From the NCBI GenBank assembly GCA_021018995.1, contig CM037588.1, positions 150,307,725 through 150,371,724 on the forward strand: 64,000 nt of DNA, written 5' to 3'. A program made the translations under genes and the position numbers. Below are positions 1,468-64,000 of the stretch, piece after piece; position 1 is the first letter of the stretch; every line of letters starts with the position of its first letter. The notes beneath the pieces are model-generated. The model was not told where the DNA came from. It ran no database searches and was given only the letters and a program-made list of their open reading frames with translations. The stretch comes from Chloranthus sessilifolius (lineage: Eukaryota > Streptophyta > Magnoliopsida > Chloranthales > Chloranthaceae).

Positions 1468-3463
1468 CCTGGGACGATATGATATGTCCCAAAACAATGC
1501 CATCTTTAACCATGAAGTGACATTTTTCCCAGTTAAGAACAAAGTTCTTCTCTTGGCATCATTCAAGCACTAGTGACAAATGATTCAAACAGTCAGCAAA
1601 ACTGTTTCCATGGATCGAAAAGTCGTCCATGAAGACCTCGAGGAATCGCTCGACCATATCCGAAAAAATACTCAGCATACATCTTTGGAATGTAGCTGGT
1701 GCATTACACAGCCCAAACGACATTCGTCGGTAGGAGAAAGTACCAAAAGGACATGTGAAAGATGTCTTCTCCTGATCCTCAGGTGCAATGACTATTTGGT
1801 TATACCCGAAATAGCCATCGAGGAAGCAATAGTACGCATGCCCGGCCAATCTTTCCAACATCTTATCGATAAACGGAAGAGGAAAGTGATCTTTCCTCGT
1901 CATCAAATTTAACTTTCTATAATCAATGCACACTCTCCACCCTGTTTGAATTTTTGTATGGACTAGTATGTTTTTCTCATTCTTCACCACTGTGACTCCC
2001 GATTTCTTAGGGACCACTTGTGTGGGGCTGACCCGTTTACTGTCAGAGATGGGGTATATAATTCCAACATCTAGAAGTTTGATTACCTCATTTCGGACCA
2101 CGTCTTGCATTATAGGGTTTAGTCTCCTCTGTGGTTCCCTAAAAGGCTTAGCATTGTCTTTCAAATGGATTCGATACATACAAACCGTGGGGCTAATACC
2201 TTTGATATCTTTTATTGACCAACCAAGGGCACTTTTGTGCTCTTTGAGTACATTCATGAGTTGGCCTTCTTGATGCGCATCCAATGTTGATGATATTATA
2301 ACGGGTTGAGTTTCATTCTCCCCCAAGTAGACATACTTGAGATTTTCCAGAAGAGGTTTAAGTTCTAAGGACACTTTCTCCTCCTCTTTCGGCTTTTCCT
2401 TGATTAATTCAATTTGACTTTCACACTCTATTTCCTTTTCTTCTCCCAGACGGGGTGTGGAGTCCAACATGTGATTCACTTCTTGGATCAGTTGATCCAC
2501 ATCAAAATTCTCTCCAAAATGTACAAGACAAGCTGCTAAAGGATCGTCAGTTTCGGATGCATGAAATATTTCCTCTATGATTTCATCGAGTATGCATGCT
2601 TCTGCATGTTCATCATCCTCCATGGGCTGCTTGACAATATTAAAAATGTTGAGTTCTACTGTCATATTCTCGAATGACAGATTCATGATCCCGTTTCGAC
2701 AATTGATCAGTGCATTGGAGGTAGCTAGGAATGGTCTTCCTAGAATCACTGGAATGTTATTTTTTAAATTTGATGCTAGTTCAGTGTCCAACACAACAAA
2801 ATCTACAAGAGAGTAAAAAGAATCCACCTTGACGAGAACATTTTCCACAATTCCTCGAGGGATCTTTCCGGACCGATCAGCTAACTGAAGGGTCATCGTA
2901 GTGGCCTTAAGCTCTCCCAATTCGAGCTCCTTGTACACAGAATAAGGCAGCAAGTTGACACTTGCTCCTAAATCCAAAAGGGCCTGATCAATACGGTTAT
3001 CGCCGATGATGATCGAGATTGTAGGACAACCTGGGTCCTTGTATTTGATCGGGAGCTTTGCTTGTAACACTGAACTAACTTGCTCGGCTAAGAAAGCCTT
3101 TTTCGGAATATTTGTCTTTCTTTTAATTGTGACCAATTCCTTCAAAAATTTAGCATAAGCCGACACTTGGCGGATGACATCTAGGAAAGGAATATTAATT
3201 TTTAATTGCTTGAAAATCTCATTTATTCCTTCCTCATTGCGATTTTTCAGTGGTGCCATCAATCTTTACGGGTACGGTGCTTTAGGAACAAAACTTCTCT
3301 TCTGTTCACTCTTTTCTTCTGATGTTTCTTTTGCTTGTACTTTATCATCAATTTCTTCTTTCTCTTCAAATTTTTTCTCTCCATCAGACTTTTCCTCCTC
3401 CTCTGGCAACACTACTTTGTTATCGACCGTCTTTCCAGATCTCAATGTTGTGATCGCCCGAAT
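1468..3463 (-). pseudogene. Athila pol fragment: aspartic protease and reverse transcriptase
   Basis: Reading leftward, the C-terminal gag spacer passes into an aspartic protease with active site ALLDLGASVNLLP and the downstream block LQLADRSG. The RT follows with WRVCIDYRKLN, FPLPFID, FLDGYFGYNQI, TCPFGTFSYRRMSFGLCNAPATF (split here: TCPFGTFSYRRM, then SFGLCNAPATF) and the catalytic FMDDFSIHG. A TGA at 1559-1561 stands where relatives have Arg, after which the frame stays recognisable (NWEKCHFMV, GIVLGH) until the E0 LTR cuts it near 1468. RNase H and integrase are missing. The protein would make cDNA from the element RNA in virus-like particles, but this copy cannot work. Confidence 0.88.
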
Positions 3464-5128
3464 TTATTGTTGATCATCCTCTTGTGTTGAAGTTGATGTT
3501 TGTTCAACAACCATTTGGCCCCTTGGATTAGGAACTGGTTGGCTCGGAAACGATCCTTTTTTTCTTTCCAAGAGAAAAGTGGCCAATTGCCCAATTTGGG
3601 TCTCTATTTTAGAGATTGAGGATGTGTGAGAATGAATGAGTTTCATTAGGTCCTCAGTAGAAGGAGTTTGTGTATGAGGACGTTGGGCAGTATTTCCCTG
3701 TGGAATGTTAAATCCAGGTGGTGGAAATGTTGGCACAAAATTTTGCTGTGGTTGGTTTTGATAACCTCCCATTGGTTGTGCAAAATGATAATTCTGGTTC
3801 ATTTGCCTTGGCTGCCCAACCTGATTCTGATTGTATTGAAATTGATTCGGGTTATTAAACCCTTGCTGCTGAAATTGCCCTTGACCGTAGTTCTGCTGCG
3901 GTCCTTGGTTGAAATTTTGTTGGGGATAAAAGTTCATCCCCTGCTTCCTGAGCTGTATTCTTTGATTCTTTTGTTTCCATGAGAAATTTGGGTGGTTTCT
4001 CCAGCTATTTGGTTTATTCTCATTGAAAACGTTTCCTTGATTCCGCCCATAATTATTCACAACATTTAGCTGTTCAGATGTGTCTTCATGATAGTTCTGC
4101 ATTGAAGGACAATCATCTGTCATATGCATTGGACTTGCACAAATTGAACATGGCTCAGGTTGTGTATTTACCATATGCACATTCTTCTTTAATTTCAATT
4201 CCTCCACTTGTTGAGTGAGGAAATCAATTTTAGCCATCAAATCCGGGGAATCCTTTACTACGTATAGTCCTCCTTTCTTGGTTGAACTCCCAGCTTGATC
4301 ATGGGCTTTGACTGGTTGTTCCCGAGTCTTTGTGAAATCCCAGTGCTAAGAATCCTCAGCAAGCTTTTCTAGGAAAGCATAAGATTCAGTTTCCTTAAGA
4401 CTCAGGAATCCTCTGCCATTCATTGACTCCACCAGATGTCTATTTGGTTGACTCAGTCCATTGTAGAAACACTGAAGCAATCTCCACTTTGAGTATCCAT
4501 GGTGTGGACATTTGAGTAAGAGATCCATGAATCTATCCCAAGCTTCATATAATCTCTCATCTTCCTCTTGCGTGAAATCCGTGATTTCACGTCTAAGGAC
4601 ATTAGTCTTCGCCATAGGGAAGAACTTTGACAAAAACTTTTTGACCATCTGATCCCAGGTGGTTATGGATCCCGATGGTAGAGAGTTTAATCAGGCTTTT
4701 GCTTTATCCTTTATAGAGAAAGGAAACAAGCGTAGCCTAACAGATTCTTCGCTGAAGTTTTGGTAAACAGATGAGCTGACTTCGACAAAGTCTTTAACGT
4801 GCTGGTATGGATCTTCTCTCTCCATGCCATGAAAGATTGGAAGGATTTGAATGACATTTGTACGAATTTCAAATCGGCCACCAGGTGTGGCGGGGTATAC
4901 AATGCATGATGGGGTATTTGTAGTGATTGGAGAGAACAGTTCTCTCAATGTTGGTTCTTCCTCTTGTTCAAGTTGCCCATTCATGTTGTCAGTCATACTG
5001 ACTTCAGTGGATGATTCCCTTGAAAATTTTTGCCTTGATCTAGCGGCCTTACGATTTGACCGACAAACACGTTCGATCTCTGAATTTAAAGGCTCTAAAG
5101 TTCTTTCTTTAGAAGACCTAGTGTGCAT
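3464..5128 (-). pseudogene. Athila gag, broken by nonsense codons
   Basis: The likely start is the ATG at 5128-5126, giving MHTRSSKERTLEPLN, which resembles other Athila gag starts; further upstream the frame runs into a (TA)n tract. A retrotransposon gag domain spans about 4950-4350 (LPIFHGMEREDPYQHVKDF, LRLFPFSIKDKAKA, EAWDRFMDLLLKCPHHG). A Gln/Asn-rich tail and a CX2CX4HX4C zinc knuckle (CSICASPMHMTDDC, around 4150-4110) follow. In-frame stops are TGA at 4691-4693 (Trp in relatives), TAG at 4346-4348 and TAA at 3464-3466. The frame is never shifted between 5128 and 1468, so gag and pol were one open frame before these point mutations. Confidence 0.85.
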
Positions 5129-5178
5129 GCAAATGACGCACAAAGCAAAGGTTTCGGGTAGGAAAACCTCAAGAAAAT

Positions 5179-5218
<40 letters not shown>

Positions 5219-5467
5219 CAAAATTTAAAAAAAAAAAAATTATTATTATTATTATTTTTTTTTTTTTTTAAAGCTCGATTGATCGAGTGGGAATCTCGAT
5301 CAATCGAGAGAGGGTCGATGAATCGACACTGGGGGTCGATGCATCGACTCTCTGCAAAAAAATTTTATTTTTTATTTTATTTTATTTTTAAAGCAGAAAT
5401 ACTATTTTAATCTCCGAAAATTTCTAAAATTTACTCTCTACCAAAAATTCAGATTTTCTTAATTTAA
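5129..5467 (-). other. E1 leader with (TA)n tract and TCGA palindromes
   Basis: This is non-coding sequence between primer site and gag. It holds a (TA)n microsatellite at 5182-5215, A/T homopolymers at 5229-5270, and four dyads between 5274 and 5350: ctcgattgatcgag, tcgatcaatcga, gtcgatgaatcgac and gtcgatgcatcgac. The last is the same palindrome found in the Athila LTR promoter region. No open frame of interest is present. Confidence 0.7.
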
Positions 5468-10709: not shown

Positions 10710-12100
10710 TGATGAGTAGTGAAATATGATGATATTTCACCCCTAGATACCTATATTTAGCTATCCGATGAAGGCTATCTGATAAGAATTATTAGATTTG
10801 AAGTGTTTCAGGTAAATACAAGCCAAGTGCAGAAAACAGTCCAAGAATTCTGAAAATAATGTCAAAACACTGCAACTTTGGGTCATCGAGAACTTGGTGC
10901 GACTTGTAGCTCAATTTGGACATTCAAGACGGCCGAAGTATGAAATTGTTAAAACACAAAAGTTGTAGATCTTTTTATCAGCTTTCCAACGGATAAAGAA
11001 TCTCCTCAATCTGAGATCGGGACAGAAAATTATCGCCAAAATACTGAAGCAGTGTCTGATGTAAAGTTCGGCGGGAATTCACGAAAATCTGGGAGGTCGA
11101 TGCATCGACCCTATTGGGTCAATTAATCGACCCTAAATTTTCGAGTTGAAACACCTCTGCGGCTGGGAAACTTCGGCTCTATTTAAAGTGGATCAAACAC
11201 TTCAGAAAGGGGGGATTAGGAGCAGGAATTAAAAAAAGAAAATTAGGCAAGAATTAGAGATAGAAATTAGAGGGAGGAATTAGAGGAAATAATTAGAGAT
11301 TTTTTAGAGAGAGTTTTTTTGAGAGGATTATTTATTCATTATTATTTTTGGTTTTAGACTCCTCTGAGCATCTTTTCAAGAGTTCTTCTTTCTCCTTCTT
11401 CTAGGGATTGATTTGGGTAGATTGTACTTAAGATTTGCACTGTCTTTCTTTTACATTCATAGATTGTATTTAGGAAAAGGCATTGTAACCAAAGATTTTT
11501 GGAAGAAATAAAAAGAGGAATGACTTTGAATGAACAAGGAGATCATACACCAAAGATGAGCGGCTAAATCAGTAGATCGGGAAAGATGCGATCCCCAGAT
11601 AAGTACCCATATTTATGATTAATACCATAGTCTAATGTTTTTATTATTTTGATCTACACATCACGAGATACGCTATGCTTCTTACATGACTCATACCGCA
11701 ATGATAGGCTGAGTCATTGTTTTTAGATAGGGTATGCCGGATTGATGATCATACTTTATTTCAAATCATTTTTATGAATGAATGATGGTGATGGTGTGAA
11801 TGATTCTTTAATGAAAGGGGGGTACAAATCTGGGGTAGCATATTTCTTGATCTTATTTAAATATTATTCTTAGATTCTTCGGTAATTAGTTATTTAGATT
11901 AATTTATTTTTCTGCATTTAGGAAAAAGTGATAAATTTTTGGTAAATCGAATCTGCCCTTTGGTACTTCCTTGGGGATGCTTTTAAATCCCTGAAAGAAT
12001 TAATTAAAAATTCAGATTTCCCTGTGGGTTCGACACCTTTGTTCTTGCCATACTACAATAGATCTTGTGCACTTGCAAGGGTTACATTTAAAATACACCA
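10710..12100 (+). repeat. E2 3' LTR
   Basis: It pairs with the LTR at 5647-7019 and keeps the fuller version of the family sequence (ggggggtac, tctggggtagc). Palindrome GGTCGATGCATCGACC is at 11095-11110 and the TATA-like ctatttaaag at 11179-11188. Confidence 0.9.
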
Positions 12101-13739
12101 ATATTCTACCAGTCTTATGATTTAGGTGGTTTGATGAGATGATAATTACTGACTACAAACTAAAACTTAACTGATAATTCAAAAATAAAGATAAAGATGA
12201 AGATACTAAATCCTCCAATCTTTGGTCCGTTCTTCCCATAATATAAATCTACGGATTAAACTATGAGATATACCATTGAGAACAAATATCTTTTATGGAA
12301 GATAAATGGTCAAAAACCCCGATAGGTTTCACGTTGCATCCCTGCAATCAGGACTTAGATGATTTTCATATATAGATATGAGATCAAGGGCATGACTCGG
12401 CACACTTGATCTCAGGTTCAAATAAAAATCATCCCCAAAGTGGGTGAAAATTCTAACAAGAATACCACCATAGATCTGAAATCAAGGGCATAGCTCGGCA
12501 CACTTGATTTCAGATTAGAGAGTAATTAAGATAAAATTACCATTACAGATCCAAGATCTAGGGCATGGCTCGACACACTCGATCCCGGATCATAATCGTA
12601 ATTATATCCACACGATGAAAGCAAAAAGACCATAACAATAATTGGGTAAAATTACCGTCACAGATCTGAGATCCCGGGCATGGCTCGGCACACGCGATCC
12701 CCATTAGTGGCGGGGATTTCATCCGTTCATGATAGCACAATAATCATAAAATAAGATCTCATATTTTAATCCTAAATTTATATTATTAAAAGTACATCCC
12801 TCGGATGGGAATCATTAGATCCCCATCCTTATGAATTTAGCCACACATATTGCAATTAAATGACATAAATAAATAAGGAAGAGAAAATAACATTAATTTA
12901 ATAAATTAAAAATACCTCAACTTCAAAAGAAATTACTTTGATCCAAAAGTACGATGGTCTTCAGAAACGAGAATAATGCAGGAATAAACTTGAGCAAAAA
13001 TATAATAAACTGGAGGAATGAGTACTGGAAATTAAAGGAACAAAGCTCTCAATAAGGAATAAATAAAAACTCCCTATTTCTATGTCTAACTATGAAAAAG
13101 AAAAGCAAAAAACTAAAACTCTAATCTCCTATCTCCCTAATTTCTAATTCTCCCTCGAAGTGTTTGAGTCGCTTTAAATAGATTCCCGATCGCAGAAGTC
13201 TCCCCAGCCGCCAATTTAGGGTCGATTAATCGACCCAATAGGGTCGATACATCGATCCTACAAAAGAGGCTCAAAATCAGCTTTAAAGTAGTCAATTCCG
13301 TGTCAGACTCTCCTTCTCTTCGATTAATCGACCAAAAGGGTCGATGCATCGACCCCCAAAAATCCGTGAATTTTAGCACACTTTTTGTATCAGACACTGC
13401 TTCGGTATTTCAGTCATAACGTTCTGTTCCGAACTCGGATTGAGGTGATTCTTACGCCGTTGGAAAGTGGACGACAAGATCTACAACTTTTGTGTTTTGA
13501 TAATGTCATAATTCAGCCGTCGTGAAGGTCCAAATATAGGCGCAAGTCGCACCAAGTTCTCGATGACCCAAAGTTACAGTGTTTTGATATTATTTTCAGA
13601 ATTCTTGGGCTGTTTTCCACACTTGGCTTGTATTTACCTGAAACACTTCAAATCTAATAATTCTCATCAGATAGCCTTCATCGAACAGCTAAATATAGGT
13701 ATTTAGGGGTGAAATATCATCATATTTCAGTACTCATCA
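12101..13739 (-). repeat. E1 5' LTR, outer piece
   Basis: On the minus strand it starts tgatgagtactgaaatatgatg at 13739, matching the E0/E2 LTR start for roughly 600 bases, including two sets of TCGA palindromes (13219-13262 and 13320-13355). The part 12101-13130 is different from the other LTRs and longer, and contains a tandem stem-loop array. The right target copy of E2 is 12101-12105. Confidence 0.85.
12380..12700 (-). repeat. Four imperfect tandem stem-loop units inside the E1 LTR
   Basis: The core word gggcat(g/a)(g/a)ctcggcacac occurs four times (about 12388, 12486, 12560 and 12676), each flanked by complementary arms. The clearest are gagatcaa/ttgatctc (12380-12387, 12406-12413) and atctgaaatcaa/ttgatttcagat (12474-12485, 12504-12515). 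Arms differ between units while pairing is kept in at least two of them. Confidence 0.65.
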
Positions 13740-14234
13740 ATTATATAAATAATCGACATCGATTGTATAAACAATCGGTATCGATTATTTATAAAATCGA
13801 TATCGATTATTTATAAAATCGATATCGATTATTTTAAGAATCGGTATCGCTCCGTTATTATAGGGAAATTAAAAAAATATTAATTCAAAATATAGATCGT
13901 AGAAAGAAGAAGATAAAATTATACAGAAATGGAAGATAATTTGATTTCTAACTTACATATTTGGTAGCTTGAAGATTGAAGTTCTGAGCATCACCGACTT
14001 TCAAACGTCTCGCCTCCACCGACTTCGAACGAAAAGTAAAAAGTAAAAAGTAAAAAGGTAAAAACCCTAATGATTTGAATCTTTGACAATTATTTATTAC
14101 GATGGGAGTACTTTCGACATTTCATAAAGGCGGGTGACGGCTTAGCTTGCAGCTGGTCGGTTAGGTGAAAGGTTGAAATATAGGGTCTCTGGCAGAAAAG
14201 GTGTATCTGACAGGGTCGATTTGGAAAATTTTCC
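13740..14234 (-). mobile_element. Truncated MULE terminus of the same family as the large MULE
   Basis: Read on the minus strand from 14234, the sequence aligns with the left end of the 12.2-kb MULE (18845 onward): similar terminal repeat (ccctgtcagatacaccttttctgccagaga in two blocks), the block cgttcgaagtcggt, and ctaccaaat(c/a)tgtaagttag. It ends at E1, which inserted into it. Positions 13748-13856 carry the same TCG-N4-CGA array that follows this end in the large copy. Confidence 0.75.
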
Positions 14235-18835: not shown

Positions 18836-18844
18836 TTTATTTTC
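18836..18844. repeat. Left 9-bp target-site duplication of the MULE
   Basis: tttattttc, identical to 31084-31092. A 9-bp duplication is the hallmark length for Mutator-like elements. Confidence 0.9.
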
Positions 18845-18924
18845 GGGAAATTTACCTGACAGGCCCTATCAGATACGCCTTTTACGTCAGAAACCCTGTA
18901 GTTTCACTTTTACCCAAACAAACC
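18845..18924 (+). repeat. MULE left terminal inverted repeat
   Basis: Starts gggaaatttacctgacaggc. It matches the reverse complement of 31004-31083 at 77 of 80 positions, and all three differences are A/G. Weaker similarity continues for about another 100 bases inward. Confidence 0.93.
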
Positions 18925-19211: not shown

Positions 19212-19400
19212 AATCGATATCAATTTTATATGTAATCGATATCGATCTTATATGTAATCGTTAACAATTACATATTGAGTCGCTATCGATTATATGTAAA
19301 GTCGCTATCGATTACATTTATAGTCGATAACGATTATATATGTAGTCGTAATCGACTATATAAATAGTTGATGGCGACTCTATAACAAATCGATATCGAC
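19212..19400. repeat. TCG-N4-CGA dyad array 1 (left spacer)
   Basis: About nine units of roughly 20-23 bases, such as atcgatatcgat, gtcgctatcgat, gtcgataacgat and gtcgtaatcgac, separated by AT-rich linkers containing tatatg. It lies between the terminal repeat and the first coding frame. Confidence 0.9.
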
Positions 19401-19675
19401 TTTCTATGGATATAATTAATACCCATCATATGAATTAATTTCCCTATAGTTATTACCCTCGATGCCATAATAAATCATATGAGGTTTTATATTTATCTCA
19501 GCCGACGTTCAATTTATTGCCAACTACCCTTTTGTAAAATCATTATGGCAAGTTAGGTTGGAAGAATGAGAAAATTTAATACAACGATTCGTATTCCACC
19601 ATCTAAGAGCTTTAAATACAGGTATAGTTCGTCCTTAGCAAACCTATCATCCCTATCAGCCCATATTTTTCCCAA

Positions 19676-19964
19676 TGTCAGACGATGAAGAAAAATCTTC
19701 TACAACCCAATCAAGTTCGAGCCTGTATGGGAGGACCCACCACCACCACCAGAACCAGATCCTCTGCAGTTCCTGTGGGACGAGTACGATGAAGTAATGG
19801 AGATTTTGGCGAAGGAAGAAAGGAAGAAGAAGAAGGAAGAAAAGAAAAAGAAGAAGGAGGAAAAGAAAAAGAAAAAGAAGAAGGAAGAAAAGAAAAAGAA
19901 ACTTAAGACGGAACCACCCGCCTCTCCACCCCATCCATCACCTGTTCTTCATCCATCTTCCTAA
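19676..19964 (+). pseudogene. Small Pro/Lys-rich protein at the MULE left end
   Basis: The ATG at 19676 opens MSDDEEK and then runs out of frame; a one-base shift near 19690 leads into a frame that stays open to TAA at 19962 and reads EDPPPPPEPDPLQFLWDEYD, a long Lys/Glu tract and a Pro/Ser tail. I take it as a roughly 95-residue gene with one frameshift. The composition (acidic start, proline run, charged helix) shows no known domain. Its 3' half is duplicated at 20305-20425. It could also be the first exon of the protease gene downstream. Confidence 0.45.
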
Positions 19965-20129
19965 ATTTTCTTTTCATTTTTAATTGTAATTGAAAATTTT
20001 TGAATGTAATTAAAAAATTTTGCAAGTAAATGAAATATTTTGGTTCAATGGCGACTTCATGAAATCTTTTGAGTTAGTAAATTAAATATTTTCTATATAA
20101 ATAAACATTTTGAGATCATTGCGACTTTA

Positions 20130-20298
20130 TATTGAGTCGATGGCGATTTCATATGTAATCGATATCGATTACATCTAGACTCGATATCGATTACATATAG
20201 AATCAGTATCGATTATATATAGACTCGATATCGATTACATCTAGAGTCGGTATCGATTACATATAGGGTCGATATCGATTATATATGTAATCGATATA
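20130..20298. repeat. TCG-N4-CGA dyad array 2
   Basis: Units include gtcgatggcgat, atcgatatcgat, ctcgatatcgat, atcagtatcgat and gtcggtatcgat in 20-22-base steps. It lies in the spacer after the Lys-rich frame. Confidence 0.9.
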
Positions 20299-20654
20299 GG
20301 TAAAGAAAAAGGAAGAAAAGAAGAAGGAAGAAAAGAAAAAGAACAAAAGAAAGAAAAAGAAACTTAAGATGGAACCACCCGCCTCTCCACCCCATCCACC
20401 ACCTGCTCTTCATCCATCTTCCTAAATTTTGGTTAGAAGCGGAGGACCGCTTTTATCGAAGAATCTTCCTTAGGACGTTGCTGCAAGATTTTCTTTTCAT
20501 TTTTAATTGTAATTGAAATATAATGAATGTAATTAAAAATTTTACAAGTAAATAAAACATTTTGATTCAATGGCGACTTCATGAAATCTTGAGTCAGTAA
20601 ATTAAATATTTTCTATATAAAAAAATATTTTGAGGTCATTGCGACTTTATATTG

Positions 20655-20818
20655 AGTCGATGGCGATTTCATATGTAATCGATATCGATTACATGTAGAC
20701 TCGATATCGATTACATATAGAATCGGTATCGATTATATATAAACTCGATATCAATTACATCTAGAGTTGGTATCGATTACATATGTAATTGATAACGACT
20801 CTATATGTAATCGATACA
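20655..20818. repeat. TCG-N4-CGA dyad array 3
   Basis: Copy of array 2 within the tandem duplication, with a few substitutions and a slightly different 3' end. Confidence 0.88.
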
Positions 20819-21757
20819 GGTTTTATATATACATTTCATCAACATTTAAACTATCCTTGTTAGTATGGGGCTCAGTCATTTCTTTTTTATTACAGTTCAT
20901 TTCACAAGGCTGCTAAGATGATTGTACACCGAGCTGTTGCCAAGTGTTCGCCCAGTGCCATTTCGAATCTCTACAAAAATGCTACCCTAGCTCGGAAGAA
21001 GTTGCTGAGAGATTCTATTTTTGGTGGAATATTTCAAATGCCTAAGGGTGTGGGATTTCTTTCCGATGTGGTGGATGCGATGTTGACATTTTGGGTTGAA
21101 AATAACCACTTCTGAATTGGAAAGACTGATGTCTATCTTCGGAAGATAGACATTGCATTGATACTGGGCCTTGCCGTAGTTGGCCCAGAAAAGTATACCC
21201 CATCTGTTAAACCATCGAAAGAACAAACCATTCGATACAAATACTTTCGTGGAATGCTTCTTGAAAAAATTCTCCGGTCTCATATAGATGCTGAATTTGT
21301 AGAGCGAAAAGTGATGAGGACTTCGTAAAGTTGTCCCTTCTATTTGTGTTGTGCATATTTCTCTTCCCCGGGTCCCACCATTAGCTTTCGGAAGACCACA
21401 TCGACCTCATCGATGATGTGGAGAACTTTAACCGAACTCCGTGGGGTCTGCATGTTTACCAAGACTTGATTGAGTATATAATGAAGGGCGCGGCGAATAG
21501 AAAAACTGTCGAGATGGATAAAACCCTGAAGACGTACAACACATATGGATGCATATGTGTACTTCAATGGTGGGCTTATGAGATCCTGCCCGATATATCG
21601 CCATCCCAGCTAGGCCTCAAGGACCCTTTCCCACGGCTGCTGAAATGATCGGACAGGGCGCAGTCAAGGATGAAAGGTTACACTCGTGGACAGATGTTAG
21701 ACAACAAGGTATGAGGTCTATTGCCAATTCAAAAAGAAACTTACCGATTTATTCTAG

Positions 21758-21985
21758 AATCGATAACGATTCATTACAGAATCGATAACGACTTTTTAAG
21801 AAGTCGATAGCGACTCAGTACAGAATCGTTATCGACTACTTAGGATGTCGATAGCGATTCATTTAGGAATCGATAACGACTTACTAAGTAGTCGATAACG
21901 ATTCATTAAATAATCGATAGCGATTCAATAACGAATCGATACCGAATTTTTAAATAGTCGGTACCGATTCTTTACATAATCGAGA
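21758..21985. repeat. TCG-N4-CGA dyad array 4, in an intron
   Basis: About ten units of 21-23 bases: atcgataacgat, gtcgatagcgac, atcgttatcgac, atcgataccga, gtcggtaccgat and others. It fills most of the intron between exons 1 and 2 of the protease gene. Confidence 0.93.
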
Positions 21986-22651
21986 ATGATTTATTATATA
22001 TACGATCATTTTATTCGGTTATTCACCATGTTTCCTTTTCTTTCAAAAGATTCACGCTCCCCTCGTGTCACAGGGCTTTGAATTAGAGATACCCGTGTTA
22101 AGAGAATATCTACGGGTTCAAAAGGAGGTTGGGGGGAAGAGGAAAGAACCTGTCAAGAAAGCTGTGGAAGAGATGCGGTCGAAGAAGAAAAGAAATTACA
22201 TTCCGATTGAAAATATTGATGAGGAAGAATGGGATGACGCATCGACGTCAGAAGAAGAACCCACATCGAAAAAGGGCCCCGTCCATGTCGGAGAGGGTCG
22301 GCCAAGAACTAGGGGAGCCACCAAGGAGAGCCTGGCAGTGAAAGATAGCCCAGCTAAACCGTCCACCTCCAATGATCTTTTGATGAGGAGGGTCGATCAT
22401 TTGACGATGGAGAACTTGAAGCTCACCCAAAGAGTGAGCGATTTGGAGGGAGAGAATAAGGTCCTGGCTAAACGTTGCGCTTCTGTAGAGAAACTATACA
22501 ACTCCTTCAATGAGAGGCTGAATTCAAGGGATGCGGAGTGGCAGAAGTTAAATCACTACAACTATTTGGTCAGAAAGGGCCAGTCGAATATAAAAGAACT
22601 CCTTGAAAATTTATTGGAGGCGAGACCTAAGGTATGTGTCAACTGTATTTA

Positions 22652-22860
22652 TAGTCGATAACGATTATATACACAATCGTTATCAACTTTATATAGAGTC
22701 GATACCGATAATATATGCAATCGTTATCGACTCTATATACAGTCGATATCGATTATATTTACAATCGATAGCGACTATATATATAATCGATAACGATCAT
22801 ATATAAAATCGATAGCGACTATAAGTACAGTCGATAACGATTATATTTAAAATCGATTTG
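22652..22860. repeat. TCG-N4-CGA dyad array 5, in an intron
   Basis: About nine units, begun within 20 bases of the 5' splice site (gtatgtgtc at 22633) and ended some 60 bases before the 3' splice site at 22920. Confidence 0.93.
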
Positions 22861-23570
22861 GACTTTTTAAAATGTGGACAAAAAATTAATTCTTATTTTG
22901 CACCATTATTTCGATGTATAGGATGTGGCTATGGAGGAGCTGATATCGAAGGTGTGCGACACAGCCTTCGATAAGGAACCATCAGCTCCTGCGTATCAGG
23001 TTCCTCCTCCTCCCGTTGATGAGGTGAAGGTAGCTGCTGACGAGTAGCCTGAGACTCAAACTGATAAAGGTCCTGCTGGTGAAGAGGAAACCTCTTCCCA
23101 ATTGCCTCACCAACAAGCTAAGCCTCGCTTAAGACCTAGGCAAGCAAAACTCAGCAAAGTAATTTCCGTCAAACCTAAGGCACAGCGAAGGATAGCGGCT
23201 GAAAAGAAGCCTACCAAGAAGGCCAGCGAAGGACCAACGTTGAGCTCGACCGGCATACCATTACCGCCGTCCCGGTCTATCGGATGAAGATGCTCCTCGC
23301 CGAGCTAACTGAGCAAAAATATATGCTAGACATATGGAACAAGCCTCTGAAGGAGGATGAGTAAGTTATTCTTTCCTGAATACTTAACTTTATTATTATA
23401 TATTTATCGTGAAGATTAGTTAAGTTGGCCATTTTTTATGCAGAGAATATGTTAACACTGTCGGCAAGTATAAGCTGGTGGTGCAATCCTTCAGATGTTT
23501 GGCGGCCACGCAGTACCTGGATAACTTTGTAAGTTTAACATACTGTAGGTAAAATCAAGAATGGTTAAAG

Positions 23571-23803
23571 CTGTCGATGACTCGAAAAAGAGTCGATATC
23601 GATTCATTATAGAGTCGATAACGATGACTTACATAATTGTTATCGACTCTCAAATTAATCGATATCGATGGCATTTAGAGTCGATAACGATGGCTTATGT
23701 AATCGTTATCGACTCTTTAAATAATCGATATCGATTCATTTGAGAGTCGATAACGATGACTTAAGATATCGTCATCGATGACTTATAGAGTCGTTAACGA
23801 TTA
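23571..23803. repeat. TCG-N4-CGA dyad array 6, in an intron
   Basis: About eleven units, alternating gtcgatatcgat, gtcgataacgat and atcgttatcgac, in the intron between 23529 and 23851. The intron edges themselves are free of the repeat. Confidence 0.93.
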
Positions 23804-24855
23804 TATATTTTACTCTAACTGCATATTTAAATCTAACTGCATTGGTTTCAGGTTATGGGCGCCTACCTGAGACATTTGAAAGTAATTGATGATAAAATTC
23901 ATCCTGATAAAAATCTCAAAAACTTCCTTATAGACCCTACCGCGCTGACGTACATGAGCTATGAACTGAGAGATTTCAATAAGTTCCTGCTTGCTGAAAA
24001 ATTATACGACCAATCGATCGAGGTTCAAGTTCAACGGTGGGCTGTCTATAGACAAAAAGAGACCGGAGGGAAGAAGCTGATGGAAACTTTCTTCTTCAAT
24101 GAGCTTCGAAATCTGTGGGCTCACGAATGGAGCATAGTATGCTTTTATCCTCTTTATAATTATTCTTTTTAATTTTTCTATCATACCCTTTGAGATTATA
24201 TTACTTTTTTATAGATATTTATGTCAATATATTCAGAACAACCACTACACTGGGCGCTTACGATCGTGAAGGTAGTTGAACGATCGATAATGATCGTCGA
24301 CCCTATATTTAATAGGCCCTCTAAGGAAAGATATGTCTCCCAATTGCTGGCGCTGGTAAGATATTTTTCTTAGCATATCTTTTATCATTGTTAGCTTAGC
24401 ATATCTGACACTCCTCTCTATTATTACGAAACAAACCCAATACCTTCCCATGATTTTATATTCGTACGGTGACTCCGCTGCATTGATCAAGAAGAACTAT
24501 CCTTGGCCATCTAGTGATTGCCGGATCAAAGCCCTCCCCCGACAGACCAACTCGTGTGATTGTGGAGTGTTTGTTATGAAGTATGTCGAGTACTTCATGA
24601 TGGGGAAGAAATTTGACTTCGCGCAATCAGATATAGATAGGATCAGGACAGAAATTGGCCATATACTGACTACATACACAGGCGATGGCGGAGTACTGGC
24701 GAAGGACGACAAAAGGAGGGGGAGCAGCAGTAATGTGGTTGTATTTTAATATTTTTGTAAATGTAAATGAAATATTTTTTCTTAATGAATTATTTTGAAT
24801 ATAATTGCACTATTTTTATGTAGCTGTGGTTAAAAAGTAGAAATAGCAGCTATTA

Positions 24856-25137
24856 TCGACTATATATATAGTCGTCATCGACTATATAACTAATCGGTAA
24901 TGACTCTGTATGTAATCGCTATCGACTATATATAGAGTCGTCATCGACTATATAACTAATCGGTAACGACTCTTTATGTAATCGCTATCGACTATATATA
25001 GAGTCGTCATCGACTGTATCCATAATCGATACCGATTCTTAAATGAATCGATATCAACTTTATAAATAGTCGATGGCGACTCTATATAGAGTCGATATCG
25101 ATTATGGATACAGTCGATGACGACTCTATGATTCATC
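24856..25137. repeat. TCG-N4-CGA dyad array 7, between the two convergent genes
   Basis: About thirteen units, including an internal duplication (gtcgtcatcgac...taatcggtaa...atcgctatcgac twice). It occupies the spacer between the 3' end of the protease gene and the 3' end of the transposase gene. Confidence 0.92.
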
Positions 25138-26127
25138 GGTAAAGACAATATTACAGTAAAAAAACATAGATTCTGAATTTCTCGTTTACATTCAATCTAT
25201 CATTATTAAAAATATACACTGTCAAGCCATCGGTCCCACTGCCATGCAGCTCCTGCGGTTGTGACCATATTCACTGCACCTGCTATACTGTAGTGCCCTA
25301 ACCTCACCCTTAGACCTTATCCTTCTCTTCTTCGGACGGCCGGCTTGCTTTCGACAATAATAGGGTGGTCTCACTTTCATATTTTCAGGGAGTTGCTCTG
25401 CTTGGAACTCCCATTGACTTTTATCGAGGGTGGGAACCCATTGCTCATCGTATGTTTGTCTAAAGCAAGCGGTGAAAAACCATTTCTCACAAAAGTTATG
25501 GTAGTCATAACTTCTTCGATTGATGGCCGCCACGGCATGGGAGCAAGGCAAGCCATGAATGTAATAGCCTGAAAAATCACGCTAAACTATGACCTCGGGA
25601 TCCGTGCTCGATTGGTCACAAGTTTGACCAATCAGGAGATCAAGAGTTAGCATAGAATGTGATGAACGGACGAGATGTGATGGGTTGAATGCCTATGTGG
25701 TGTGTGTTGTGAATGTGAAGTCGCATACACCTACCGCGGTGTGTGTGCTCAACACACAAGTGAGGAAAGGGATAAAAGGGTTTAATAGCCCTAAAAGCAA
25801 GAGTTTGATGGTTGTTGAAGGAGAGTAAAGAAGAGAGAGAGAGAGAAGTAAAGAGAGGAGTAAATGCTAGTTGAGGAAGGGAGATTCGAGCAATAAACGT
25901 CGGATTCGACGCCAGGGATCCGCTAGAAGCAAAGCTGGAACCCTAGCCTTTCCAACCATAGATTTGAAATCAATTTGAGATTGATTCAAGGTAAAATTTT
26001 GTGAATAAGATGCATAGATGGTAAAGTCTAAATTGTAGTTGAAAATGGTTTAAATCATAGGATAATGGTTTAGAAAAATAGAGGAAAAAGTGTGGAAAAA
26101 GATGGGGAAGAACAAATGAAAGGGTTG

Positions 26128-26525
26128 AATCGACAATTTCGATTAATCAAATTGGGTTTCAATTAATCAAATTGGCCGTGAAGTTGAAAAGTCAAGGACG
26201 ATTTTATTAATCGAATTGGAGTTCGATTAATCGACTTTGGATTTCGATTAATCGATTTGGGTATCGATTAATCGACTGGGAACCTCTAGTGGACCCCAGG
26301 GGGCTGGAGGAAAAGACTTGGGAAAATCGACTAATCGAAATGGGATTTCGATTAATCGATTTCAATTTTCGATTAATCGATTTGGGATCGATTAATCGAT
26401 TTTAGGAACTCGATTACTCGAATTGAGAATCGACTTGGCTGAACAGAGAATTTTGATTAATCGAATTAAGATTCGATTAATCGAATGAGAATCGATTAAT
26501 CGATTTTGGAGTTCGATTAATCGAC
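26128..26525. repeat. TCGATTAATCGA array in the solo LTR
   Basis: About fifteen copies of the 12-bp palindrome or one-base variants (cgactaatcga, cgattactcga), mostly 17-23 bases apart and joined by g- and t-rich linkers such as ctttggattt and tttggg. Confidence 0.9.
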
Positions 26526-27438
26526 TGAGATAAGTTATGTTGACTTTTGAGTTTGACTTTAAGATTCTTGGAGGGTCTTAAACCTTCTTTATTGCATCCT
26601 TTGTGATGCGTTTCACCTGTTATGTGGTACCATAGGTGGTACGTGTGGACTAGTGCACAAGGAGCCACGTGGGACCTTGAGGCATTGATCAAATGAAGAC
26701 TTGAGGTAGGGAACACCTTGAACATGTACTTTATTCTACAAGAGCATGTATGTAGTGATATAGAATTCAACTCAAATGTTTAATTGCTTAAGAATTGTGA
26801 AAAGTGTGTGTGCGTGTGACATCTATAAGAGTAATTCTAATAAGCCATCCCCAGGGGATGAAGAAGTAAAGAGATGAGAGCATCAGGTGTGATGCAAGTA
26901 AATGGATACATCCCAGGGATGTATCCAATGATTGAATCATGTTTGACAGGGCCTAACTGATATAAGATAGCACACTTACACGGTGAATAACTATATGTAA
27001 GGCACCGATATTTTTGTTATTTGAGGTTTGATAGGTTACCCCACCGACGTGGCGGGATATTCACGACTGACACGGCAGGATATCCGTGACCGATACGGCG
27101 GCGAAACCGTAGGCCAGTGCGGAGGCTTATCCGTACATAGTAAGCACACCCCAGGGGTGTTGGATTGAGACAAGTGAAACCCCGCCAATCCCGGGGAAAG
27201 GGGCTTGGGTACTATATGGTATTCGGGAATACGTTAAATGCTCTATATAGATGACGATGAAGGGTATCTCATCGGGCTCGATGCTATATTGCTCGGGGAC
27301 TACTTAAGTTGAAAGTTTAAGTTTTGCTTTAGGCCTTTTCAAAGATCATTCATGAGTAAATGAAAACATAAGTAATCAACAAGAAACGAAATGCTTTTAA
27401 CTGCTTTTCATCAATAATCGTGCATAGACACATCATGC

Positions 27439-27645
27439 ATGGCATATCATGGAATATATGTGAGTTATAATTTATATGTTCAACTGTGTTTATTCCCTAT
27501 TGAGCTAGGATGTAGCTCACCCTATAGACTATACGTCGCAGGTCCACTACTAGCAGCTGCCGAGGCTTCAGGAGACGCTGACCCCGGTGAGTCGGACCTT
27601 GCGGTCGAAGACGAGTTGGAGCCACCTCCTGAGGACTTCTTCTAG
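27439..27645 (+). other. Conserved GC-rich LTR block with short open frame
   Basis: About 106 bases from tattgagctagg (27498) to ccttgcgg are identical to 57738-57843 in the other chromovirus LTR, although flanking LTR sequence differs by many indels. A frame through it ends GELEPPPEDFF-like at TAG 27643 in both copies, and the last codons differ partly by synonymous changes. A 3' splice-like tacgtcgcag lies inside. It could be an exon of the element transcript; coding is unproven. Confidence 0.4.
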
Positions 27646-30473
27646 AGGACTCCGTTGTGCCGCTTTGAGGGCTTTCTATAGAGATTTTGTACGGCTTGGT
27701 ATGTCAAGCCTTGATTTTATTTAAAACCATGTATATAAGGAGTTGGGATAATTCTTTTGGGACGAACCATCCGTGATGATTGCTGTCATCGATGGTTCGG
27801 ATCGGTTCTCCATTCATGCAGAGGCATAAGGGTAGAACTGTCTTTTGGGGAGTTGCTTAGTATAGATTTAAATTCCAAAATTTCGTTTATTATTCTATTG
27901 CATGCTTGATATACCAGTGTTCCGTGCTTAGCAAAGGGCACGGTCAAGATGATCGTGCTGATGGCACGGGTTTCGGGGTGCCGAATTCCGGGCTGTCACA
28001 ATGAATGTGCCAACGGCGGCAACTATAGGTCTTGTGCTCCAAGTCGACGTGATGAATGAAATTTCCGGAATTGACTTAGAATTGATCGCGCCCGTATGAT
28101 TGAGCTCTCTTTCTACCGGCCCATTGCAACACCTTCTTCATGTGCACGTCTGCTTTCGGGCAGAGAAGGGTGGTCCATTTCTCAGATATCTCTCTGCATT
28201 TTTGAAAATGATCGGCGACTTTCTCTCTAGTAGTTCTGATTAAGTCGATAATTAGTCTCTCTCGAGCTATCTTTAGCACGCTGTTTAAACTTTCGATAAT
28301 ATTCGTAGTTAGGGAATCGTACTGCCTTCCTTCCATATGTGTGCGTACCCAATACTTCGGATTTATTTTCAAAATATATTCTACGGCCTGAGAATCAGCA
28401 GGATCTTTCTTCATTTCATTAATAAAATAATCAAATTTCTCTTTCGAATATGCACGCACGGTGCACCACCATAGACCCTTCACATTGTTCCTGGGATACT
28501 TGTGCTATAAATTTTGTGTCATATGTCACATGCAGTAGTTGTGATATGCGTTAGGGAAGATACATTTCACCGCATTTATTAAACCCTTCAACCTGTCCGC
28601 GATAAATATGAAATCTTCGTTAAACCCACCGATCACGAACGCACCTACCTGTTCAAGAAACCACATCCACGTATCCTCTTCTTCTAACTCGACCACGACA
28701 AATGCTAATGGTAATATATGACCATTATCATCTTGCACAGAGGCGATAAGTAGGATCCCTTCGAAACGTCCTCATAGGTGTGTACCGTCTACAAGCAATA
28801 TGCGACGAAATGTATTGCGGTAGCTTCCGATGCATGGGCCAAAACTCCAAAAAAATCTTTGAAACTTACCGTCAAGAGTAAGTTGAAAGGATGTTCGTAT
28901 ATTAGGATCTACCCTCTTCATCTCCTTCACGTAGGCCGGTAGATCAACAAATTGTCCTTCCCAACTGCTTCTAATATCATTAAGGGCAAATTCTTTTCCC
29001 CTCCAAGCCTTTGCATATGAGATTTACACATTATAAGCTTTTGCAATATCAAACATTATCAATGTCGGTGTGTAGTCGAATCCTTCCATAAGTTTATCCC
29101 GTACATAGTTCGCTACGAAGGAGATTGTTGTATTACGGTGACCGTGCGGTCCAATCTTAGCGGCTCCGCATGTGTGAGTACTATTGAATGTCTTGATTTG
29201 GAAAGAATCGAGCCCAGTCAATTTAGAAGCATGTATTCGCCACGAACAATCGGGTTCGTAGCATCCGGCTGTCACTCGATAACTAGCGGTCCTCAAAGAC
29301 CGAATTTGAAAGTTTTTCTCCACCGCGTGCTCTTTGAAATGTTTGTTTGTCTCGGAAGATCTCTCCAATTTTAAATGTCCAATTCCGATATTCAGTTTCC
29401 ACCTCTTCATCGGAGGAGTCGCCCGATGTCTCTGACATTTCGTAATCTCTGTCTACTAGGGGATTATTAATGTCTCTCATAAAAATTTTCGGATCCTCTT
29501 TGATAAACCCATTCGGTTCGCCTTCATATTCTTCTTCTAAGGTATCTTCATTCATGGCTTGAGGATGACTACGCCATTCACTAGCGGTGTTCTCGGGTGG
29601 TTGACTAGATCCTTCACCGAAGGGGTTCACCGAATGGATAATGGCGTGGTTGGCTAGGTCCTTCACCGAAGGGGTGCTCATGTATATGGACATGGGGTTG
29701 AGTTACTTCGGTAATTCCCATCGATGGCATGGTAGAATATAAGTCTTGAGTAAACCAAGTTGTCCATCCACCGGGGAAGATATGACTGAAATCGTCGGTA
29801 TCCACCACCCTTTCTGAAGTATAGTCTAACCATTGACTACATTGTTGTGACCCAGGCATGTATTTTACTGGGTCATCATACGATTCAATCGGAGCATCGT
29901 TTAAATCAAATGTTGCTTTCCCTCTGCCATCGTTCGCCGCAATATAATCGTCATCGTCTAACGGGACGGTATCGTATACAGTTTCATCCTCAAACTTACA
30001 TGGCTGAAATGAATGAGTCACAAAATCAGTCCCGCCGAGATTTACTTGTTCAACTTCAACTGGGAAGGATGACGGTTCCTTAATGATGAATACTTTTATA
30101 ACATCCACCGCGGATTTATAAAACGTAAATAATGTAGCCAAATCATCATAGTCCAAAATGTCGGCAACCACAAGCGTATTCACTATCTTCATATGAAACT
30201 TTGTGGAAACTATTTCATCCGCCTTCGCAAAACTGACAGTAGACATTCACCTTATGAATTGTTCATAAAAAATTTCAGTTGAAATGTTAATAAGCCTCCG
30301 CCGGCCACCTTGATACAAGCCATCATCGTTTAGAAGAAGGCCATCATAGTGACAAAGAAGAGGAATTATCACGTCTGTCATCGTCTGTTTAAGAATGAGA
30401 AGGAAGGAGTCATAAGACTGATGAAACAAAAGAGAAAAGACGATTATAAATCTTAGCCGATTGTGTATACAAT

Positions 30474-30590
30474 CGATATCGATTGCAAATACAATCGTCA
30501 TTGACTCCATATAGAGTCGATATCGATTGTGTATACAATCGATATCGACTCTATAAGGAGTCGATGACGATTGTATTTGCAATCGATATA
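30474..30590. repeat. TCG-N4-CGA dyad array 8 (right spacer)
   Basis: About five units (atcgatatcgat, gtcgatatcgat, gtcgatgacgat) upstream of the transposase start, between it and the right terminal repeat. Linkers here are tgtatac- or tgcaaat-like. Confidence 0.88.
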
Positions 30591-31003: not shown

Positions 31004-31083
31004 GGTTTGTTTGGGTAAAAGTGAAACTACAGGGCTTCTGACGTAAAAGGCGCATCTGACAGGGCCTGTCAGGTAAATTTCCC
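31004..31083 (-). repeat. MULE right terminal inverted repeat
   Basis: Reverse complement of the left repeat with three A/G differences, ending ggtaaatttccc at 31083. The duplication tttattttc follows (31084-31092). Confidence 0.93.
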
Positions 31084-31127
31084 TTTATTTTCTCGTCTCA
31101 CGAAAGGGAAGAAAAACAGATTCCCCT

Positions 31128-55675: not shown

Positions 55676-58235
55676 TGTAATAGCCCGAAAAATCACACAA
55701 ACTATGACCTCGAGATCCGTGCCCGATCGGTCATAGGTTTGACCAAAGGGAAGCCCAACAGTCAGTATGTAGTGTGATGAACGTATGAGATGTGAAAAAT
55801 AGAATGCCTATGTGATGTGTGTTGTAAATGTGAAGTCGCATACACCTACCGCGGTGTATGTGCTCAACACACAAGAGAGAAAAAGGGGATAAAAGGGTTT
55901 AATAACCCTAGATGTGTATTGTTGGTTGTTGAAGGAGAGTAAAGAAGAGAGAGAGAGAGAGAAGTAAGAGAGGAGTTATTGCAACCGATTGGAGGAGGGG
56001 GATTCAAGAGATAAAAGCCGGATTCAACGCGACTTGGATCCGTTAGAAACCAAAGCTGGAACCCTAGCCTTCCAACCCTAGATTTGAAATCAACTTAAGA
56101 TCTATTCAAGGTAAAATTTTTGTAAATAAGGTGCATAGATTATAGGGTTAAGTTGCGAAAATGTGGGATAAATCATAGGATAATGGCTTAGAAAAATAGA
56201 AGAAAAAGTATGGAAAAAGATTGGGAAGAACAGCTCGAAAGGGACTGAATCTGACAATTTCGATTAATCGAAATTGGGTTTCGATTAATCGAAATTGGCC
56301 AGGAAGTTGAAGAGTCAGAGGACCCCGATTTCGACTAATCGAATTCGGATTTCGATTAATCGACTTTGGATTTCGATTAATCGATTTGGGAATCGATTAA
56401 TCGACTGAGAACCTCCAGTGGACCCCAGGGGTTGGAGGAAATAACAGGAAAAATCGACTAATCGAAATGGGATTTGATTAATCGATTTGGTTTCGATGTC
56501 GATTTGGAATCGATTAATCAACTTGTGAAACTTCGACTATTGAACTAAGAGCGCTGCGAAAAGAAGGATTTGATTAATCGAAATTGGATTCGATTAATCG
56601 AATGAAAACTTCATCGTCGATGAATTTACTTTGCGAAAAGAAGAATTTCGATTAATCGAAATTGGATTCGATTAATCGAATGACAATTCGACTGTTCGAA
56701 CTGAGAATGGACTTTGCGAAAAGGAGAATTTCGATTAATCGATTTTGGAAATCGATTAATCGAATCAGATTCGATTAATCGATTTTGGAGTTCGATTAAT
56801 CGACTGTAGTAAACTATGTTGACTTTTGGTTTGACTTTAAGATTCTTGGGGGATCTTATACCTTCTTTATGGCATCCTTTGTGATGTGTTTCACCTGTGA
56901 TGTGGTACCATAGGTGATACGTGTGGACTGGTGCACAAGGAGTCACGTGGGACCTTGATGCATTGATCAAGTGAAGACTTGAGGTAGGGAACACCCTGAA
57001 CATGTACTTTATTTTACAAGAGCATGTATGTAGTGATATCAATTCAATTCAAATGTTTTTACTACTCAATGATTATGAAAAGTGTGCGTGTGACATTGAA
57101 GAGAACTTAAATGAACCATCCCGGGGATGATGAAGTGAAGAAGTAAAGGCATCAGTGTGATGCAAGTGAATGGATACATCCTGTGGATGTATCCATGATT
57201 GAATCATGCTTGATGAGGCCTAAGCGATATAAGATAGCACAATTACACGGTGAATAACTATATGTAAGGCAATCGATATTTTTGTTATTTGAGGTTTGAT
57301 CGTGGCGGGATAACCACATTGACGCGGATATCCGTGACCGTCACGGCTAATCCGTAGGCGATGCGGAGGCTTATCCGTCTGACAGTAAGCACACCCGGGG
57401 GTGTTGATGAGATGTGAAACCCCGCCACCAATCCCTGTGGGAAAGGGGCTTGGTACTATTGGTATTCTGGAATACATTTAAAGCTATCTATATAGATGAC
57501 GATGAAGGGTATCTCGTGGGGCTCGATGCTATATTGCTCGGGATTACTTAAGTTGAAGTTTAAGTTTTGCTTTAGGCCTTCTCAACATCATTCATGATTA
57601 ACTAAAAGACATGAGTAATCTACCAGTAATTAAAGTGTTGTAACCTGTTTTTCATCAATAAATGCATAGACATATCATGCATGCATATCATAGAATACAT
57701 GTGAGTTATATTTTATATGTTCAATTGTGTTCGCTCCTATTGAGCTAGGATGTAGCTCACCCTATAGACTATACGTCGCAGGTCCACTACTAGCAGCTGC
57801 CGAGGCTTCAGGAGACGCTGACCCCGGTGAGTCGGACCTTGCGGCCGGCGAGGAGTTAGAGCCACCTCCAGAGGACTTCTTCTAGAGGACTCTGCTGTGC
57901 GACCTTGAGGAGTTTTAGTTGGAGATTGTACGGCTTGGTATGTCAAGCCTGGTTTTTGATTAAACCTTGTGTATATGGATATCAGTGTATTCTTTTGGGC
58001 GAACCATCCATGATGATGGTTATCATCGATGGTTCGGATCGGTTCTCCCTTCATGCAGAGGCATGAGGGTAGAACTGTCTTTTGAGAAGTATTTCTATGT
58101 AGATTTAAATTCCGCAAGTGGTTCTTATTTATTTTATGCTTGATATACCAGTGTTCCGTGCATAGTTGAGGGGCACGGTCAAGATGATCGTGCTGATGGC
58201 ACGGGTTTCGGGGTGCCGAAGTCCGGGCTGTCACA
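55676..58235 (+). repeat. 5' LTR of chromovirus E7
   Basis: tgtaatagcccgaaaaatcac to gggctgtcaca, 2560 bases, homologous over its length to the solo LTR at 25560-28000. The TCGATTAATCGA array lies at 56255-56805 and the 106-base block identical to the solo LTR at 57738-57843. Confidence 0.92.
56255..56805. repeat. TCGATTAATCGA array in the E7 LTR
   Basis: Some eighteen copies or variants of the palindrome in 17-25-base steps, with an added duplication (tgcgaaaagaag(g/a)att(t) near 56555, 56634 and 56716) not seen in the solo LTR. Confidence 0.9.
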
Positions 58236-63237: not shown

Positions 63238-64000
63238 GAAGTCAATGTAAACCACAAATATGTTGTAAAATCTCCACTATGCTTGAAATTCAATGGAAAT
63301 TTGATCCAATCTGTCATAAATTGTCAAATGTAGTAAAAGAACCAAAGAAATTGACAATCTACACAATTTGGGCAAAACCGATTAATCGAATTTCAAATCG
63401 ACTAATCGATTTGGAATTTCGATTAATCGATTTTGTTCGATTAGTCGACTGGCATGTGCCAGTGACTGGAAATGAAAAATTTGAGTTAGAATATACATAG
63501 AATGAAATTTCGATTGATCGAATTATAATTTCGATTAATCGATTTTGTAATTCGATTAATCGAATTGGATTTTCGATTAATCGAGTTACTTAAAGGACTT
63601 GAGAGATATTAAAGTCAAATGGGCAATTTCGATTAATCGAAGTGATTTCGATTAATCGATTTTGAAATTTCGATTAATCGAAATGGATTTCGATTAATCG
63701 AATACTTAAGAAAGTTTAGAAAAATTTGAAGTTATAGCCCGATTTCGATTAATCGAAACTAAATTCGATTAATCGATTTTGGAATTCGATTAATCGAAAT
63801 GGATTGATGTCGGCAAGCGGCGCGATGAGCTCAAAAATTTGAAATTTTAAACAGACACGATTTCGATTAATCGAAATATTTTCGATTAATCGAATTTGAC
63901 TTTCGATTAATCGATTTGGGAAATCGATTAATCGATTTTACGCGGCTTAACCTAGTTTTAAATTTCGATTAATCGAGCCGGAGCCTATATATATGAAATT
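63238..64000 (+). repeat. E7 3' tail with TCGATTAATCGA array
   Basis: After about 140 bases of plain sequence, 63379-63975 holds some 25 gattaatcga words, denser than in the LTR and often paired as tttcgattaatcgaaat. The window ends with cctatatatatgaaatt, which resembles a TATA region. No polypurine tract or LTR start is visible before the end. Confidence 0.85.

Follow-up and report, generated by a model that had tools for sequence, protein, structure and literature searches.

Palindromic 22-bp arrays in a VANDAL-like MULE of Chloranthus sessilifolius as candidate targets of a VANC-type anti-silencing system

A 64,000-bp stretch of the Chloranthus sessilifolius genome (referred to as the window; C5:150307725-150371724) contains a VANDAL-like Mutator-like element (MULE) of 12,239 bp, in whose non-coding DNA a palindromic motif is repeated in tandem at a step of exactly 22 bp. 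We propose, with a probability of about 0.6, that these arrays serve as the cis targets of a VANDAL/VANC-type system of sequence-specific anti-silencing, for which the VANC-like protein encoded by the second gene of the element is the predicted binder. Binding and counteraction of silencing by this PMD/Ulp1 protein are predicted because the element closely matches the anatomy of VANDAL21. What is observed here comprises the arrays with their spacing, the places they occupy in copies and relatives, the protein domains and a decay of sites mainly by CpG transitions; from these observations we infer the identity of the binder, the removal of methylation upon binding, dimerisation and cooperativity.

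The arrays and their positions in the element

In the window there are 72 occurrences of the motif TCG-N4-CGA, compared with a mean of 7.3 and a maximum of 16 in 100 first-order Markov sequences. All 44 motif pairs found 10-34 bp apart in the window are separated by 22 bp, with none at any other spacing, and no 22-bp pair occurs in the 100 Markov sequences; this comparison rules out a chance origin of the arrays. The original prediction, made from the letters of the window, had put the step at 21-23 bp, of which the regular repetition stands and the range does not. Alignment of 71 units from eight arrays gives the consensus ARTCG-NTAN-CGAYT, a dyad of 14 bp followed by 8 AT-rich linker bases, where the flanking A/R and Y/T bases lengthen the dyad to its full 14 bp. 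In the motif, the initial T and the final A are invariant (71/71), and the central TA is nearly so (T in 64/71 units and A in 64/71); the four inner bases, earlier described as variable, vary at their outer two positions and hardly at the central two. Judged from the sequence, the dyad suggests recognition by a dimer, and the step of 22 bp, or about two helical turns, suggests regular stacking of the bound protein.

All eight arrays of the original prediction were confirmed where it had placed them. Array A1 (19214-19399; nine positions at the 22-bp step) lies in the left spacer, while A2 (20137-20278) and A3 (20657-20798), with seven positions each, lie in the first and second copies of a duplicated spacer (19965-20301 and 20488-20821, 91% identical, the tail of a small third open reading frame (ORF) included). 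Three arrays are found in the VANC-like gene (20918-24749, + strand): A4 (21760-21989; 11 positions) in intron 1, A5 (22655-22862; 10 positions) in the intron after exon 2 and A6 (23593-23800; 10 positions) in the third long intron. A7 (24872-25123; 12 positions) fills the gap between the two convergent genes, and A8 (30473-30570; five positions) lies upstream of the MURA-type transposase gene (25222-30246, - strand), which is broken and has a solo long terminal repeat (LTR) inside. A ninth array, A0 (13753-13828), was found beyond the span 19212-30590, in a nearby fragment of a related, inverted element that ends at 14234.

When the solo LTR is left aside, 57 of the 58 perfect motifs in the MULE fall in its 4,337 bp of non-coding DNA, and the remaining one is an isolated motif at 28689 within a total of 5,461 bp of exon sequence. 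The earlier claim that the repeat avoids exons thus holds for the arrays and for all motifs but this one. Exon limits and short introns were set by eye from reading frames and splice sites, and the shorter introns of the window MULE so defined contain no arrays.

The CpG observed/expected ratio is 3.12 in the window arrays versus 0.88 elsewhere in the MULE. This enrichment, together with the CpG-transition decay described below, would suit arrays that act as small-RNA sources or methylation traps in the service of host silencing, or as recombination substrates, and tandem repeats are named as sources of siRNAs (small interfering RNAs) in the available text of one study (PMC10398659). Serving as a silencing target alone would not explain why the element has kept a dyad and a fixed step at so many sites, and we regard these readings as very improbable.

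Conservation and evolution of the arrays

Copies of the family were sampled in two ways from the genome searched (2.17 Gb in 32 contigs). The first sample comprises 20 copies located with a 25-base array sequence, which has 197 exact matches genome-wide, the copies being taken from among the first 100. Of 118 array intervals that could be mapped in these copies, 117 hold at least three units with at least 5/6 of the fixed bases, and the exception, A8 of copy L010, retains a single unit. The second sample comprises 10 stretches picked by the transposase alone, at approximately even steps along 150 scored MULE-domain matches out of 4,280 candidates. A7 was found in all 10 of them, and A8 has at least four perfect units in eight of the nine in which it could be judged, with one unit in copy L037 (in copy L045 the match stops short of A8). 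Related copies lacking arrays at the same positions, which the original prediction had named as its counter-case, were therefore not borne out. That recurrence in copies chosen without regard to the arrays, together with the presence of the arrays in distant families described below, supports the earlier reading that the repeats are more than the product of drift.

The 22-bp register is largely kept. In the 30 copies, perfect motifs no more than 100 bp apart are separated by a multiple of 22 in 960 of 1,001 cases. Among the mappable intervals of the first 20 copies, the difference in length from those of the window is zero or another multiple of 22 in 75/118 and not such a multiple in 43/118. 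Units were further compared in the window and the copies after exclusion of intervals longer than 420 bp or shorter than 20 bp and of units with more than one deviation. In this set 858 of 1,094 units are perfect and 236 have one deviation, which is a C-to-T or G-to-A change at a CpG in 174 cases and another change in 62. The excess of CpG transitions matches the expected trace of methylated-cytosine decay. Units of different arrays agree at 0.756 in the core and at 0.472 in the linker, and linker likeness within one copy (0.473) does not exceed that between arrays. Copying of arrays between the compartments of one element was considered and rejected, as arrays of the same copy are no more alike than those of different copies. 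Because the cores agree, the linkers differ and there is no extra likeness within a copy, each array appears to have expanded where it lies, with its core and spacing held. The same combination of a kept core and spacing with unlike linkers favours the protein-binding array suggested originally.

These data also bear on the simplest alternative, that the arrays are neutral minisatellites produced by slippage in unconstrained sequence. Units are evidently gained and lost, as the interval lengths show, and the arrays decay through CpG transitions, both of which neutral repeats would do. Slippage alone would, however, have had to give independent arrays with unlike linkers the same core and the same register, to hold that register in nearly all steps and to let the core persist across distant families, and we consider a neutral origin improbable.

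Genome-wide, exact doublets of the motif number 39,345, 702 and 242 at steps of 22, 21 and 23 bp, respectively, compared with 144, 212 and 102 when the same patterns are read backwards. Among the matches listed, the 22-bp doublets group into seven clusters on contig C1, within its first 3.01 Mb; one of the clusters spans 1.960-1.968 Mb, and all seven were read except for its last two doublets near 1.968 Mb. Six of the seven lie in relatives of the window MULE. The second counter-case of the original prediction, equally dense arrays scattered over the genome irrespective of MULEs, was thus half seen: arrays do occur genome-wide, but the sampled clusters lie mostly in this MULE group, and we rejected the idea that the arrays are independent of MULEs. 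Three of the relatives (L029, L030 and L033) encode recognisable proteins: transposase pieces are 41-80% identical, the PMD domain is 57-69% identical in L029 and L030, and Ulp1 is 53-85% identical in L030 and L033. In the other three (L031, L032 and L034) the ends of this MULE group were matched and no protein was. The core and the 22-bp step are unchanged in L029, L030 and L033, with 7/32 steps off register in L030 and 4/23 in L033, and the arrays of L030 occupy six of the compartments used in the window when A2 and A3 are counted as one. L030 has in addition an array at 5150-5238, within an intron of the Ulp1-encoding part, where the window MULE has none.

Two further explanations concern which protein the arrays would attract. 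The original prediction had suggested the element's own transposase, whose binding could aid assembly of the transposition complex. Array A7 does lie beside the transposase gene in each transposase-picked copy, and arrays are present in non-autonomous relatives where just ends and arrays are recognisable. The terminal 361 and 483 bp of the MULE, inverted repeats included, contain no TCGN4CGA, so that transposase sites at the ends were rejected, and the arrays in introns and in the central gap are distant from the ends; transposase binding is accordingly disfavoured, and we give it only a very slight chance. Alternatively, a host DNA-binding protein could bind the dyad, and the elements could have gathered its sites as a promoter, enhancer or insulator. 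A core that stays constant in families with diverged proteins, and that recurs in the cluster outside this MULE group, would be expected of a host factor. Its sites would nevertheless have to be spread through introns and the stretch between the two converging genes, and not only through upstream regions, in an element that has a VANC-like gene of its own. We know of no plant factor with such a dyad site, although no motif library was searched, and a host factor appears unlikely, if less so than a neutral origin.

The VANC-like protein and known anti-silencing systems

The VANC-like gene encodes a PMD/DUF1985-type exon 1, a probable coiled-coil exon 2, which has weak matches to coiled-coil families only, and an Ulp1 (Peptidase_C48) C-terminus. 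The Ulp1 match (2.1e-11) lies on the + strand, antiparallel to the transposase on the - strand. PMD was found in exon 1 of all four copies scanned (3.2e-10 to 2.3e-8), above the curated cut-off in three of them; the domain was read in these copies, and the exon 1 pieces of the window MULE itself have no PMD match that exceeds the cut-off. The window MULE is broken, with stops and frame shifts in both genes (a stop and frame shifts in the VANC-like gene); copy L013, at least, has an open exon 1. Between L030 and L013, exon 1 differs at 71, 50 and 127 first, second and third codon positions, respectively, over 286 codons, and the PMD-Ulp1 gene is therefore taken to be under coding constraint between families. 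The transposase matches the MULE domain (8e-14) and DBD_Tnp_Mut (3.9e-10); its SWIM match (0.009-0.013) is below the cut-off, and a CCHC-like, partly degenerate pattern is seen by eye at its C-terminus. Homologue searches returned no hit at E <= 0.001 among 508 candidates for the PMD exon 1 and two hits only for the transposase, the better one 25% identical and from Nicotiana sylvestris; NCBIfam gave no match for either of two proteins scanned.

Transposon-encoded, sequence-specific anti-silencing has been demonstrated in Arabidopsis. As described in the available text of Hosaka et al. (2017; PMC5735166), VANC21 causes loss of DNA methylation and binds YAGTATTAY, a motif dense in the introns of VANDAL21 and in its non-coding DNA between genes and at the termini; the motif regions are often tandem repeats, located in the introns of VANC and VANB and upstream of VANA. 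The original prediction had held that the arrays have no described counterpart, and these published tandem VANC targets contradict it. Like VANDAL21 (Hiun) and VANDAL6, the window MULE combines a transposase and a putative DUF1985-type protein with tandem motifs in introns, intergenic and terminal non-coding DNA, and with gain and loss of units. According to the accessible part of a 2026 review (PMC13317346), some Vandals have an Ulp1-bearing VANC, and KAONASHI/KIU elements likewise join Ulp1 to a VANC-type gene that is convergent with the transposase gene and have family-specific target motifs in non-coding DNA; they are described there as non-TIR MULEs, that is, without the clear terminal inverted repeats of the window MULE. 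PMD-carrying MULEs, for which an anti-silencing use of the plant mobile domain was speculated (Ikeda et al., 2017; PMC5418596), provide a further parallel, although in several grasses and Amborella the text available reports PMD fused to the transposase, in contrast to the separate Ulp1 gene found here.

With its MURA-type domains, terminal inverted repeats and 9-bp target duplication, a length within the 8-11 bp expected of the group, the element is a MULE; like KIU, it carries an Ulp1 gene antiparallel to the transposase, and like the VANC systems it has tandem short motifs concentrated in non-coding DNA. Its ends, set by genome copies, lie at 18845 and 31083 (the length given above includes the solo LTR). 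The inverted repeats of 80 bp (18845-18924, + strand, and 31004-31083, - strand) are 96% identical, and the target-site duplication TTTATTTTC is perfect at 18836-18844 and 31084-31092; in five copies with both flanks visible the 9-bp duplication is exact in three and has one mismatch in two. Absent or degenerate inverted repeats, which mark VANDALs in the strict sense and are described as degenerate in the text available for PMC10398659, are not what this element has. With long inverted repeats, a DUF1985 match below the cut-off and no DUF287 match, the element is not established as a VANDAL family member by its sequence. A survey of MULEs, as far as given in the part available (PMC6446971), ascribes to the VANDAL clade target duplications of 9 bp, inverted repeats that measure 46-174 bp in some members, and PMD and/or DUF domains in half, all of which fit the window MULE; it also lists SWIM and CCHC motifs, to which the below-cut-off match and the partly degenerate pattern of the transposase would correspond.

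Based on this likeness, we propose that the VANC-like protein, as a dimer or higher multimer, may recognise ARTCG-NTAN-CGAYT in spacers, introns and the intergenic gap, and that the bound protein would remove silencing marks, so that both genes become expressible and the element able to move. The 22-bp step would place adjacent dimers on nearly one face of the DNA and may permit cooperative loading, and coding constraint would keep the arrays out of the exons.

Several observations weigh against this VANC-type reading. VANDAL motifs (YAGTATTAY; AGTTGTCC/AGTTGTAC) are 8-9 bp long, have one orientation and are family-specific, and the text available does not describe them as palindromic; unlike the VANC21 and VANC6 motifs, one dyad core is common here to distant families. 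One of the seven array clusters (L035) lies outside this MULE group, with neither its ends nor its proteins matched. The DUF1985 matches in exon 1 of the four copies (3.2e-5 to 1.8e-4) are all below the cut-off, and no DUF287 was found among the profile matches of the window or copy proteins. Within the family, coding constraint is not clear, as the excess of third-position differences is modest or absent: at codon positions 1/2/3, singletons and shared differences number 98/65/98 and 17/17/25 in exon 1, 111/93/107 and 7/13/13 in a 500-aa transposase ORF, and 64/65/45 and 6/4/5 in a 390-aa ORF.

The window MULE differs from the VANDALs in its 14-bp dyad, its exact 22-bp step and the sharing of both by distant families. 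With a palindromic operator, a fixed 22-bp phase and a conserved DNA code, one anti-silencing protein could conceivably serve a whole community of transposons, including distant MULE families, their non-autonomous derivatives and one or more elements that appear unrelated, a proposal that we make tentatively and think somewhat more likely to fail than to hold. L035 (C1:2422200-2424499), which carries 22-bp arrays and looks by eye like a MITE (miniature inverted-repeat transposable element) with inverted repeats of its own, parallels the non-VANDAL AT9TSD1, an unrelated element in which VANC6 motifs, themselves different from those of VANC21, also occur (PMC5735166, available text).

As far as the papers show, three features are new relative to the literature searched: a palindromic operator, a rigid register of 22 bp, and their persistence across distant families and non-autonomous elements. 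Among titles and abstract openings, a scope that did not take in Sasaki et al. (2022), there was no mention of TCGN4CGA or of a 22-bp array in a MULE. The arrays and their predicted binder, which would work like a VANC system, are a clear and useful variant and not a new kind of system. The strict register and clean palindrome, present in tens of thousands of units, make for a sharp prediction of one dimer per site and regular stacking. Specifically, if the VANC-type reading is true, the VANC-like protein should bind ARTCGNTANCGAYT, changes in TCG or CGA should abolish binding and a step of 27 bp should weaken it. The system offers a test of whether target codes must change fast or can be common to families, and the pair of array and protein could give a compact tool for targeted removal of DNA methylation in plants.

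Other features of the element and the window

The small third ORF (19675-19964, + strand) lies between A1 and A2 and has a frame shift in the window copy. Relatives of it, some not intact, were found in 17 of the 21 sequences examined (L030, where it lies at 936-1409, and 20 copies); the conserved start is acidic and rich in proline, and the tail is rich in lysine. The inverted fragment that carries A0 (about 12000-14234) resembles the left end of the MULE; parts of it match copies L017 and L019, and it may represent a non-autonomous element that is inserted in other copies.

The solo LTR (25560-28000; 2,441 bp) has its own 5-bp duplication, ATGAA, and interrupts the transposase gene where SWIM is encoded; copies that cover this spot continue uninterrupted, without the LTR. 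A second family of palindromic arrays, CGATTAATCG, with steps of about 19-22 bp, has 38 of its 41 window copies in 26224-26523, 56261-56802 and 63379-63975. The first of these clusters is in the solo LTR; the second falls within 55676-58235, an LTR-like stretch sharing 83-85% identity with the solo LTR. These arrays were rejected as a feature of the MULE and belong instead to the LTR retrotransposon family, and an LTR element with a dyad array of its own is an interesting parallel to the MULE arrays. By eye, the frames beside 55676-58235 look like those of a Ty3/Gypsy element with a chromodomain, and at 1559-5224 on the - strand there are large retrotransposon-like frames in three pieces, which resemble a protease and a reverse transcriptase.

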